The notes below the pieces were generated by a model, which was not told the origin of the DNA, did not search any database, and worked only from the letters and a program-made list of their open reading frames with translations. A program made the translations under genes and the position numbers. A stretch of DNA of 64,000 nucleotides. Source: Thermodesulfobacterium hveragerdense DSM 12571 (lineage in GTDB: Bacteria > Desulfobacterota > Thermodesulfobacteria > Thermodesulfobacteriales > Thermodesulfobacteriaceae). The DNA is taken from NCBI RefSeq assembly GCF_000423845.1, contig NZ_AUIT01000002.1, positions 62,001 through 126,000 on the forward strand, in the 5' to 3' direction. Positions 39,314 to 42,838 of this stretch are shown here, piece after piece (position 1 is the stretch's first letter; each line of letters begins with the position of its first letter).

Positions 39314-40489
39314 TTATTTTTCTATATAAAGCCCTATACCTTTTAAATAAAAGGTTTCTTCTACAAACGGATTGATTGGATGGTCTTTTGCCTGAATCCC
39401 TTTAAAAATAATTTTTCCGTCGGTTTGTAGTCTTTTAAGAGAGGTTTTAATAAAATTCAAAAGCCTTTCAAACTTTAGAAAATGAGAACAAGAAAATCCG
39501 AAGAAAAATCCTCTTTCCAGGGCTTTAAGGCCTAAAAAATAAAGGTTTTCGTATTTTTTTTCCCCTTCTAAAACATGTTTATGAGACTTTATAAAGGCTG
39601 GAGGATCAAGGATTACCATATCTACTTTAGGAGGGTTTTTTAATATGTGAAAAACGTCCCCTTGTAGAGTTATAACTTTGTCCTTCCAGTAGTTAACTTT
39701 AGCTATTTCTTCTGCTAATCCAAGGGCACTGCCTGAACGGTCAACTAAAAAAATTCTGTCAGCACCACTCTTTAAACAGTAAAACCCAAAACCACCTAAA
39801 TAACAAAAACCATCTATAACCTGCAATCCTTTAGAAAACCTGGCTATAGCCCTACGGTTTTCTCTTTGGTCTAAAAAAAATCCCGTTTTTTGTCCGGTGA
39901 TAACAGGCACCAAAAACTTTATTCCGTCGATGGTGACTAAAATCGGATCTTCTACGTCCCCATAGACTACCTTTGTATAAAGAGGAAGACCTTCTTCTTG
40001 TCTTTTTGTGTGATCGTTTTTTAAAACGATAGCTTGAGGAGTAAACAACACCCTCAAAGCTTCGATTATAAAATCTACAAGTCTTTCCATCCCAAGGGTA
40101 TGAATTTGGACCACCACTACTTTTTCAAAAAGGTCTACCACTAACCCAGGTATAAAATCACCTTCAGAAAACACTAAACGAAAACACCCTTCACCTGGAT
40201 AAAGAGACTTCCTAAGGTTTAGTGTTTTGGTAAAGGCCTCTAAAAAAAATTTTTCATCTATCTTTTGTTCTTCTCTTGAAAGTAGCTTTAAGCAGTAAAA
40301 AGATCGTGGATTAAAATATCCTATTCCTAAACAATGATTTTCCTCAGATAAAATGGTTACTAAATCTCCGGGTGCGATTTTTTCAGATGTTTTCTTAAAA
40401 TCTTTAATCTCCTTTTGGGTAAACCAGAGATGCCTTTTCAGATAAGTTTGTAGCCCTTGTTTATTTAAAACAACCGGGGGATAAAGCAT
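39314..40489 (-). CDS. RlmI-like class I rRNA cytosine methyltransferase
   Basis: 391 residues. An N-terminal PUA domain (about 1-85) includes HLWFTQKEI and GIGYFNPRS. A linker domain follows, then the SAM domain (about 190-391) with QKTGFFLDQRENRR, VIDGFCYLGGFGFY, FLVDRSGSALGLAE and the motif DPPAFIKS. This order is that of RlmI (23S rRNA m5C1962), although related YccW/RlmK-type enzymes exist. It overlaps the polyferredoxin gene upstream by 29 nt. Confidence 0.87.
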   Translation of the reverse strand: MLYPPVVLNKQGLQTYLKRHLWFTQKEIKDFKKTSEKIAPGDLVTILSEENHCLGIGYFNPRSFYCLKLLSREEQKIDEKFFLEAFTKTLNLRKSLYPGEGCFRLVFSEGDFIPGLVVDLFEKVVVVQIHTLGMERLVDFIIEALRVLFTPQAIVLKNDHTKRQEEGLPLYTKVVYGDVEDPILVTIDGIKFLVPVITGQKTGFFLDQRENRRAIARFSKGLQVIDGFCYLGGFGFYCLKSGADRIFLVDRSGSALGLAEEIAKVNYWKDKVITLQGDVFHILKNPPKVDMVILDPPAFIKSHKHVLEGEKKYENLYFLGLKALERGFFFGFSCSHFLKFERLLNFIKTSLKRLQTDGKIIFKGIQAKDHPINPFVEETFYLKGIGLYIEK

Positions 40490-41339
40490 TTTGATAGATT
40501 CCCTTTTCTAAAAATATTGCTTTATACGGACAAATTTTTACACAGTTTAGACAGCGAATGCACTCAACAGAATTCATTTCTTCTAAAGGATTAAGCCCAA
40601 CAGGGCAAATTTTTTCGCAAGTCTTACAATGGGTGCACCTGTTAAGGTTTACGTTTAGTCTTAAAAAACTAATTTTATTAAACAGTCCGTATATCAAACC
40701 AAGGGGGCATACATTCTTGCAAAAAAATCTATAATCTATTAAAACAAAAAAAACAAACAGCAACAAAAGAAAGGTTTTCAGATAAAAAAGTTTCCCTACA
40801 TAATCCCAAAGTTCTGGACTAAGAATAAGATTTAGATAGCCTGCCTCTAAAGTTCCTGCCGGACAAAGATACTTGCAAAATCCTAAAATTCCATAACCTA
40901 TTTCATCTCCCAAAAAAAGAGGTATAAAAAACACCAATCCTATAAGCATCAAATGTTTGAGGTATCTTTGAGATTTTTTAGGAAGGGAGAGTCTTCTCTT
41001 AAAGAAAGGAATTTTATAAATAAGGTCCTGGAACAAACCGAAAGGACAAACCCATCCACAGATAAACCTTCCTAAAGTTAAACCAAAAATCAAGAAAAAT
41101 CCTAATACATACAAAAAAGGACCTAACAAAACCTGCCAATTTAAGACCTTTAATGCACTTAACAGGTTTTGTAAAACACCTAAAGGACAGGAAAAAAGGC
41201 TTGCAGGGCAAGAATAACAGTTTAATCCTGGGGCACACAGTCCTTTTAAAGGTCCTGTATATAGGTTTTTGGTGAAAGGAAAACCTAAGTATCCATTATG
41301 CAGAAAAAAAGAAATAGACTGTACCACCCTTCTTTTCAT
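40461..41339 (-). CDS. NapH-like membrane polyferredoxin
   Basis: 292 residues with about five membrane helices. CAPGLNCYSCPASLFSCPLG lies near the N-terminus, then the paired CxxxCP signatures GWVCPFGLFQD and KNVCPLGLIYG. Two 4Fe-4S motifs sit at the C-terminus, CTHCKTCEKICP and CIRCLNCVKICP. The NapH/YccM family moves electrons across or along the membrane. An upstream ATG at 41366 exists, but the ATG at 41339 overlaps the stop of the small CXXC gene as ATGA and gives MKRRVVQ. The electron donor and acceptor are unknown. Confidence 0.86.
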   Translation of the reverse strand: MKRRVVQSISFFLHNGYLGFPFTKNLYTGPLKGLCAPGLNCYSCPASLFSCPLGVLQNLLSALKVLNWQVLLGPFLYVLGFFLIFGLTLGRFICGWVCPFGLFQDLIYKIPFFKRRLSLPKKSQRYLKHLMLIGLVFFIPLFLGDEIGYGILGFCKYLCPAGTLEAGYLNLILSPELWDYVGKLFYLKTFLLLLFVFFVLIDYRFFCKNVCPLGLIYGLFNKISFLRLNVNLNRCTHCKTCEKICPVGLNPLEEMNSVECIRCLNCVKICPYKAIFLEKGIYQNALSPGCFK

Positions 41340-41473
41340 TCTTCTAATCCCATACAGGAAAGACACAGCACAGAACCTCTGGAATAAACAAAATCATAGC
41401 CGTTAAGTTTAAGACCTGAGAAAAATAACATTCCAAGGAAGATTAGAAAAAACAAGATTTTCCACCAACTCAT
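41336..41473 (-). CDS. 45-residue membrane protein with C-terminal CXXC (CD1871A-like)
   Basis: A short gene between glmM and the polyferredoxin gene. The ATG at 41473 directly follows the glmM stop and has AAGGAT upstream. The TGA overlaps the next ATG as ATGA. The product has one hydrophobic helix (about 5-20), then VYSRGSVLCLSCMGLEE at the end. This is the layout of the CD1871A-type CXXC mini-proteins that accompany NapH/YccM polyferredoxins. The tight coupling on both sides argues that it is real. It is probably a small subunit or redox partner of the polyferredoxin. Confidence 0.75.
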   Translation of the reverse strand: MSWWKILFFLIFLGMLFFSGLKLNGYDFVYSRGSVLCLSCMGLEE

Positions 41474-42838
41474 CTATCCTTGTCCCAACTTTTTATGGAG
41501 AAAGGCTTTAAGATCTTCGCTAACTTCCTCCACCAACTCTGGATTTTCTCCTTCTACCATAATTCGGTACTTAGGCTCGGTACCAGAAGGTCTTATGATT
41601 ACCCTTCCCTTTTTCCCTAATTTCTTTTCTGCCTGACTAATTTTTTCTTCTATACCTTCGATTTCAACCAAAGGTACTTTTTTGTTTACTTTTAGGTTTT
41701 TGATAACTTGTGGGAGTTTTTCAAAAAGTTTGGCCAATTCAGAAAGAGGTTTTTGTTTCTCCTTGATTAAAGAGATAAGCCTTAAACCTGTCAAAAGTCC
41801 ATCTCCTGTGGTAGCTTTATCTAAGAAGATGATATGACCTGAAGTTTCTCCTCCTAAAAGAGCGTCTATTTCTTTCATTTTCATCACTACATATCTGTCT
41901 CCTACGGGAGTTCTTAAAAAAGTGATCCCTTGATCTTTAAAAAAGAGTTCTAATCCAAGGTTACTCATGATTGTGCCTACCACCGTTTGGTTGGTAAGTT
42001 GTCCTTTTTCTTTAAGGTCTTTGGCAAAAATGGCTAAAAGATCGTCTCCATCTAACAGATTCCCCTTTTCGTCTACCACCACAATCCGGTCTCCGTCTCC
42101 ATCAAGTGCTATCCCTAAATGTGCCTGAGTTTCTACTACTTTTTTTCGAAGATTTTCAGGATAGAGGGCTCCACAATCTTCATTGATGTTTGTTCCGTTA
42201 GGACTGCAGCCTATTGGGATCACTTCTGCTCCAAGTTCTTCTAAGATCTTTGGTCCTACTTGATAACAAGCTCCGTTTGCACAATCTATTACTATTTTTA
42301 ATCCTTCAAAATCAAGGTTTAGGGGTACAACAGACTTTAGGTGTACTACATACCTCCCTATGGCATCTTTTATCCTAAAAGCCCTTCCTAAGGCATCTTT
42401 GTGAACCCTTACCTCTTTAAACCCTTCATCAAAAATTAGTTCTTCTATTTTAGCCTCTGTCTCATCAGAAAGTTTAAAACCATCTTTACCAAAGATTTTA
42501 ATCCCGTTATCGTAGTAAGGATTATGGGAAGCGGAAATCATGATACCTGCATCTGCCCTTAGGTCTTTGGTTAAAAAGGCAATCCCTGGAGTAGGGATAG
42601 GGCCTACTAACAAACTATAGCCTCCCATAGAACATAGACCAGCAACCAGGGAAGACTCAAAAATATATCCTGACAACCTAGTATCCTTACCTATAACCAC
42701 CTTGGTAATATGATGATTTTGATTTTTAAACAAAAATCCTATGGCTCTGCCTACCTGCAAAGCTATTTCCGGAAGCATCGGGAAGAGATTGGCTTCTCCT
42801 CTTATTCCGTCTGTACCGAAAAGTTTTCTATCTCCCAT
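41474..42838 (-). CDS. glmM: Phosphoglucosamine mutase
   Basis: It converts glucosamine-6-phosphate to glucosamine-1-phosphate for UDP-GlcNAc, peptidoglycan and LPS. 454 residues. The N-terminal LFGTDGIRGEAN, the phosphoserine site MISASHNPYYDNGIKIFG, the metal-binding DGDGDR and the sugar-binding GGETSGHII are all present. The C-terminal RPSGTEPKYRIMVEG binds phosphate. It follows cdaR by 5 nt in the conserved cdaA-cdaR-glmM order. Confidence 0.97.
   Translation of the reverse strand: MGDRKLFGTDGIRGEANLFPMLPEIALQVGRAIGFLFKNQNHHITKVVIGKDTRLSGYIFESSLVAGLCSMGGYSLLVGPIPTPGIAFLTKDLRADAGIMISASHNPYYDNGIKIFGKDGFKLSDETEAKIEELIFDEGFKEVRVHKDALGRAFRIKDAIGRYVVHLKSVVPLNLDFEGLKIVIDCANGACYQVGPKILEELGAEVIPIGCSPNGTNINEDCGALYPENLRKKVVETQAHLGIALDGDGDRIVVVDEKGNLLDGDDLLAIFAKDLKEKGQLTNQTVVGTIMSNLGLELFFKDQGITFLRTPVGDRYVVMKMKEIDALLGGETSGHIIFLDKATTGDGLLTGLRLISLIKEKQKPLSELAKLFEKLPQVIKNLKVNKKVPLVEIEGIEEKISQAEKKLGKKGRVIIRPSGTEPKYRIMVEGENPELVEEVSEDLKAFLHKKLGQG

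Follow-up and report, generated by a model that had tools for sequence, protein, structure and literature searches.

A 45-residue CXXC membrane protein paired with a polyferredoxin: a candidate thiol-reducing pair with predicted selenocysteine homologues

In System II cytochrome c biogenesis, as summarized in PMC3884852, apocytochrome c is normally reduced by CcdA and ResA. Other described membrane proteins carry CX3CP motifs; the account of NapH-type proteins in PMC5928378 gives these motifs no agreed role and treats NapH as thought to be fed by quinol. A third relevant group, the CD1871A family of NCBIfam (NF040920), has a model name that assigns it no function. The locus described here, from Thermodesulfobacterium hveragerdense DSM 12571, touches on all three. 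It encodes a 45-residue membrane protein, overlooked by gene finders, that lies beside an Fe-S membrane protein in many anaerobic bacteria. A literature search judged by titles and abstracts, with most subscription papers outside its scope, returned no paper on this mini-protein/polyferredoxin pair. The main new facts are the UxxC form of the mini-protein, its operons with resB and ccsA, and its pattern of replacement with CcdA. Judging from sequence, we consider it rather probable that the mini-protein and the polyferredoxin make up a two-subunit transmembrane thiol reductase that replaces CcdA/DsbD, mostly in genomes that have no CcdA.

The mini-gene and its polyferredoxin partner

The window, by which we mean the whole 64,000-nucleotide stretch that was analyzed, contains the following features.

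41336..41473, minus strand: CXXC mini-protein gene, 45 amino acids, with one hydrophobic (membrane) helix and then a short segment ending in CLSCMGLEE
41354..41365, minus strand: CXXC motif, Cys37-Leu-Ser-Cys40; Cys37 is the site read as TGA (Sec) in 38 homologous loci
41477..41481, minus strand: ribosome binding site-like AAGGA ahead of the mini-ORF
41339..41336, minus strand: ATGA overlap between the TGA stop of the mini-ORF and the ATG of the polyferredoxin gene
41474..42838, minus strand: glmM, the upstream neighbor; its stop codon (41474-41476) abuts the start of the mini-ORF
40461..41339, minus strand: polyferredoxin gene, 292 amino acids from the overlapping ATG

The mini-ORF has 45 codons and runs on the minus strand from an ATG at 41473, directly after the glmM stop, to 41336 with its stop codon included. 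The protein is the cysteine form, CXXC and not UxxC, and its C-terminus, VYSRGSVLCLSCMGLEE, is the same as that quoted in the initial annotation of this DNA, which also described the start at the glmM stop, the ribosome binding site and the overlap with the next gene; all of these were confirmed on the sequence. The ATGA overlap makes translational coupling of the mini-ORF and the polyferredoxin likely.

A CXXC mini-ORF lies directly upstream of the polyferredoxin in all 30 loci fetched from relatives, which argues that the ORF is more than a chance one. A profile built from these 30 mini-ORFs (A1) was searched against 41 related genomes and matches in 33 of them at E < 1e-10. Of the eight genomes that give no such match, three are incomplete (64-76%) and the other five belong to different families of the phylum; among these five, G040 still reaches 1.1e-4. 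Lack of conservation in related genomes, the outcome that the initial annotation named as counting against the ORF, is thus the opposite of what we see. In eight pairs of close relatives the pN/pS of the mini-ORF is 0.20-0.72, the differences being mainly synonymous, and this bias, together with the conservation among relatives, rules out a chance ORF. That the mini-ORF at 41336-41473 on the minus strand is a real gene is well supported.

The polyferredoxin has an N-terminal cysteine motif (Cys35, 41, 44 and 51), three CX3CP motifs (Cys94/98, 155/159 and 207/211) and a C-terminal pair of 4Fe-4S motifs. We examined its position in 137 mini-ORF loci (100 and a further 37). In 130 of them (98/100 and 32/37) it lies downstream, no more than 1.5-1.6 kb away, mostly after a gap of 25 nt or less (218-1057 nt in nine loci), and upstream in two (L190 and L298), for a paired total of 132/137. 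No polyferredoxin was found in the other five fetched loci, namely L146 (a second copy in G208), L281, where the contig ends 18 nt past the mini-ORF, L295, L299 and L302. The last three (from G185, G056 and G205, respectively) are second, Sec-type copies of the mini-gene whose fetched stretch holds no polyferredoxin. At L190 (5013-6098, a second copy in G257) the order is reversed, with a single TAG separating the polyferredoxin from a downstream mini-protein in the same frame, an arrangement close to a natural fusion.

The pairing itself is well supported, and this part of the initial annotation, which coupled the small protein to a NapH-like polyferredoxin, stands. The resemblance to NapH stays below both models' cut-offs: the polyferredoxin scores 83.6 bits with TIGR02163 (cut-off 213.05) and 77.5 bits with NF007013 (cut-off 234). 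Among Fe-S models it also matches CcoG weakly.

Relatives of the mini-protein and predicted selenocysteine forms

The CD1871A model, NF040920 (CD1871A_fam), matches 17 of the 30 A1 members at E up to 10, the best at 1.5e-10. Under its curated cut-off, a whole protein must score 32 bits or more. The window protein gives no match to the model at E up to 10, nor is there one at its locus in the genome search, and by curated score it is not a member. G025, from the same order as the window genome, scores 39 bits and is the only one of the 41 relatives over the cut-off. By homology and common architecture the window copy does belong with the family, since A1 and a wider profile, A2 (52 rows, four of them Sec forms), hold members both above and below the cut-off; both cysteines and two glycines are invariant in the 52 aligned rows, with Sec written as Cys. 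The results for the window copy and G025 mark the former as a divergent homologue that is no member by NCBI's rule, and on sequence grounds the window mini-protein is a divergent relative of the CD1871A family. The likeness to CD1871A-type proteins noted initially holds for the group, while the window copy lies below the reach of the model.

Searches covered 394 genomes of one phylum, each at least 90% complete, and one Chloroflexi genome (G413). In the 394-genome set NF040920 matched 93 genomes at E ≤ 0.01, 49 of them over its cut-off, and A2 matched 129 at E ≤ 0.001, with 140 matches in total. The Chloroflexi genome also has the mini-gene, with a polyferredoxin downstream. One divergent mini-protein, with CTACTGLG (L016 in G007), stands beside a polyferredoxin match that has one in-frame TAA, a possible case of decay.

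In 38 loci (11 seen at first and 27 further), the first cysteine codon of the CXXC is replaced by an in-frame TGA. The first 11 cases, for each of which the DNA was read, came from ten genomes of family f30 (NF040920 search) and from G040 (A1 search), before Sec forms had entered any profile built here. The 38 loci span 13 families by automatic family labels, and families f9 and f30 contain both Sec and Cys forms. Among the 140 A2 matches, 37 contain one TGA, none contains a TAG and one contains a TAA, which sits just ahead of the start codon of the mini-ORF. Because every one of the 38 interruptions falls at the same codon and is a TGA, never a TAG, sequencing error and pseudogenes can be ruled out as their source. 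Variation in the codons 3' of the UGA is largely silent (Leu CTN, Ser TCN and AGY, Cys TGY, Ile ATH).

A SECIS-like hairpin, GGGGUC-GGGU-GAYCCC, which begins 15 nt downstream of the first UGA base and is scored as present when at least 5 of 6 pairs form, is found in 30/38 Sec forms versus 7/99 Cys forms; when it is slid by -2 to +3 positions as a control, only 0-4 of the 38 score. A second type, GGGUUA-GGN-UAACCC, occupies the same site in four more Sec forms, and neither type was found in the remaining four (three of f9 and one of f12, G080). Folding energy alone, taken over the 57 nt that follow the UGA, told little (z from -1.54 to 0.32, 11 sequences); it was the specific hairpin, set against its slid and Cys-form controls, that decided the matter. 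Of 40 genomes tested, 39 have a tRNA-Sec that scores over the cut-off, 11/11 Sec-form genomes among them, and 38 have SelB, including 10/11 Sec-form genomes; SelB was not found in the Sec-form genome G331 (92% complete). The only tested genome without both, G283, has the Cys form. Four genomes (G040 C163, G124 C1, G063 C11 and G317 C2) have a second tRNA-Sec-like gene beside a second SelB gene, a combination that may be a separate recoding system.

The homologues thus combine the features by which selenoproteins are recognized, an in-frame TGA aligned with Cys homologues, a SECIS-like element and the Sec machinery, and the prediction that they form a selenoprotein family (UxxC) is well supported. 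Table 1 of the May 2026 inventory of 119 families (PMC13188914) contains no UxxC family that is related to CD1871A or linked to NapH. The TsoA model (LULAXC, NF045695) did not match any of six mini-protein family members scanned. With the gene about 45 codons long and the UGA eight codons from its end, gene finders would truncate the Sec form. The Sec codons at the first cysteine strengthen the redox role proposed in the initial annotation.

Exchange between Cys and Sec is a usual sign of catalytic thiols and is seldom met at Fe-S ligands, and here it argues for a catalytic thiol. This bears on a different and, in our view, unlikely explanation, in which a quinol-linked relay resembling NapH/NosR contains the mini-protein as a structural part whose CXXC ligates or completes an Fe-S cluster together with the N-terminal cysteine motif of the polyferredoxin, and the acceptor is a periplasmic reductase rather than thiols. 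Such a relay would account well for the NapH-like membrane module with its CX3CP motifs, the four-cysteine motif at the polyferredoxin N-terminus and the near-universal pairing. It fits poorly with repeated exchange of Cys and Sec at a single position, with the presence of ResB, CcsA and TlpA among the neighbors, where no dedicated reductase recurs in the largest clusters, and with the complementarity with CcdA described below.

Gene neighborhoods and the distribution of CcdA

In family f30 the gene order is resB, ccsA, mini-ORF, polyferredoxin, which places the pair with System II genes (for example in G226, G146, G123, G264, G188, G331 and G283). The distance from the end of ccsA to the mini-ORF is 8-82 nt in nine genomes (G188, G331, G347, G283, G097, G226, G146, G123 and G264). 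A gene for a GltD-like Fe-S/flavin oxidoreductase, as we take it to be from its sequence, precedes resB at L285 and L290 and is a possible electron donor.

Across the fetched stretches of 126 genomes, ResB was matched in 17, CcsA in 20, a TlpA-like redoxin in 25 and any of the three in 39. Counted by locus, such a gene accompanies 40/137 pairs versus 0/38 12-kb control stretches drawn from nine of these genomes (Fisher 1.6e-5), in a comparison where loci are not independent and f30 contributes many. A CXXC site is present in 17 of the 25 TlpA-like redoxins, 14 by pattern and three by eye (G232, G056 and G205); one of the 14, in G317, is a thioredoxin 4 kb away. The remaining TlpA-like matches are f30 redoxins without a CXXC site and a Bcp-like protein (L286). 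At seven loci (L142, L143, L147, L148, L149, L281 and L284) a redoxin-like protein in which WSxRS-type residues replace the CXXC is encoded upstream of a Sec-form mini-gene. An early neighbor cluster of 25 genomes labeled "TlpA" was discarded because it had merged with TPR proteins. Other recurrent neighbors, presumably MTH1187-like, RdgB-like and RNase PH-like proteins from their sequences, look like shared housekeeping gene order. Queries for ResB, CcsA and TlpA found none in the 64-kb window, where the pair adjoins glmM.

The distribution of the pair relative to CcdA was examined in the 394 genomes, with tallies taken by hand from the match lists. PF02683 (DsbD_TM/CcdA) is present in 324 genomes and absent from 70. 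The pair gene, as matched by A2, occurs in 57/70 genomes without PF02683 versus 72/324 with it (Fisher by genome, p = 1.4e-20, or 1.5e-12 without families f1-f3). By family, it occurs in 20/29 CcdA-less and 16/79 CcdA-bearing families (Fisher p = 4.8e-6). In the Thermodesulfobacteriales-like families f1-f3, 20/20 genomes of the set have no PF02683, likewise 24/24 in another search. PF13386 (DsbD_2) occurs in 12 of the 70 CcdA-less genomes, 10 of which carry the pair gene, and all 70 have PF01578 (cytochrome c assembly domain). The window genome has neither PF02683 nor PF13386 and has two PF01578 matches; in its lineage, genome-wide absence of CcdA is the only tie of the pair to cytochromes. 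Counter-cases exist in both directions, namely the 72 CcdA-bearing genomes that have the pair gene and the 13/70 CcdA-less genomes that do not. These 13 (G045, G058 and G065 among them) have CcsA and neither CcdA (PF02683) nor the pair gene. The pair itself does not belong to CcdA/DsbD, as PF02683 and PF13386 are absent from its Pfam matches.

The neighboring genes and the complementarity with CcdA are our reasons for assigning the pair a reductive direction and a link to cytochrome c, and they point to reduction of cytochrome c and TlpA thiols. The initial annotation had proposed a minimal redox unit and named no partners for it; the redox role is retained, and partners are now hinted at by these two lines of evidence. 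A rather improbable alternative is that the pair serves some other metal- or thiol-dependent assembly, such as a CcoG-like delivery of copper or iron by reduction, and that its link to CcdA is indirect, through anaerobic lifestyle. The weak CcoG match is in keeping with this, as are the 87/126 genomes with no ResB, CcsA or TlpA-like match in the fetched stretch, but the association with CcdA absence persists at the level of families and resB, ccsA, mini-ORF and polyferredoxin follow one another directly. Least plausible, and to our minds very improbable, is an oxidase like DsbB or VKOR that passes electrons from periplasmic dithiols inward: an electron carrier next to a membrane protein with a CXXC would suit it too, but ferredoxin-type clusters usually have a low potential, and the pair is enriched in genomes without the reductant transporter CcdA and neighbors genes for cytochrome c biogenesis, a process that requires thiols in reduced form.

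A candidate electron path and its relation to known systems

A predicted model of the polyferredoxin (57-row alignment, mean pLDDT 86) has long helices at residues 68-89, 121-142 and 183-201 and is weak in the N-terminal cysteine region (pLDDT 55-58). If the three helices span the membrane, the N-terminal cysteine motif and Cys155/159 would share one face, with Cys94/98, Cys207/211 and the ferredoxin domain on the opposite one. In a model of the read-through chain, the mini-protein is made up of two helices joined by a turn, the second of them reaching to the CXXC (pLDDT about 60); its basic N-terminus would be inside and the CXXC outside. Sequence searches of the PDB returned only ferredoxin-domain matches for the polyferredoxin and only chance-level single-helix matches for the mini-protein, and Foldseek gave nothing at E ≤ 0.001.

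For a thiol reductase built from these two proteins, we infer the membrane sides, the direction of flow, the physical contact, the substrate and the electron donor as follows. Electrons would enter at the cytoplasmic 4Fe-4S ferredoxin domain of the polyferredoxin and would cross the membrane via the cysteine motifs at the ends of its membrane helices. The polyferredoxin would then reduce the C-terminal CXXC of the mini-protein (UxxC in many species) on the outer face, and the resulting dithiol or selenol-thiol would reduce TlpA/ResA-like thioredoxins or, directly, the CXXCH of apocytochromes c. Against this path stands the quinol supply ascribed to NapH, since quinol is a poor thiol reductant. 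The broader proposition is one on which we are evenly divided: that this is a new kind of transmembrane machine for reducing power, in which an Fe-S polyferredoxin feeds a detached 45-residue dithiol or selenol-thiol subunit, that Thermodesulfobacteriales and many other anaerobes use it instead of CcdA/DsbD to mature cytochrome c, and that it brings with it a selenoprotein family missing from current inventories. If true, it would account for the way cytochrome thiols are kept reduced in anaerobes whose c-type cytochromes are made without CcdA/DsbD, would give a function to the named but uncharacterized CD1871A family, and would add a selenoprotein family of a kind that gene finders would cut short.

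The window mini-protein and the CD1871A family (NF040920) have in common their size, one N-terminal hydrophobic helix and a C-terminal CLSC[IM]G. They differ in that the window protein, like most others of its genus, falls under the 32-bit cut-off or gives no match, and the family name says CXXC whereas 38 homologous loci are UxxC. Ferredoxin-thioredoxin reductase, which is soluble and cytosolic, works alike in principle, converting electrons from an Fe-S cluster to a dithiol. A Sec form of that enzyme is listed in Table 1 of PMC13188914, and the UxxC redox motif is a feature shared with the known prokaryotic selenoprotein families given there. With the NapH/MauN (TIGR02163, NF007013), NosR and RdhC modules the polyferredoxin shares CX3CP motifs between membrane helices, and with NapH and NosR, as described in PMC5928378, two C-terminal 4Fe-4S motifs. 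It differs from NapH and NosR in its additional N-terminal cysteine motif and its third CX3CP, the NapH and NosR module having two according to the same source, and from all of these modules in having a CXXC mini-protein as partner. With CcdA/DsbD (PF02683) the pair shares operon company and the proposed task of supplying ResA-like thioredoxins and apocytochrome c with reducing power from across the membrane. Whereas CcdA is one thiol-carrying membrane protein, electrons in the pair would travel via Fe-S clusters and a separate mini-subunit.
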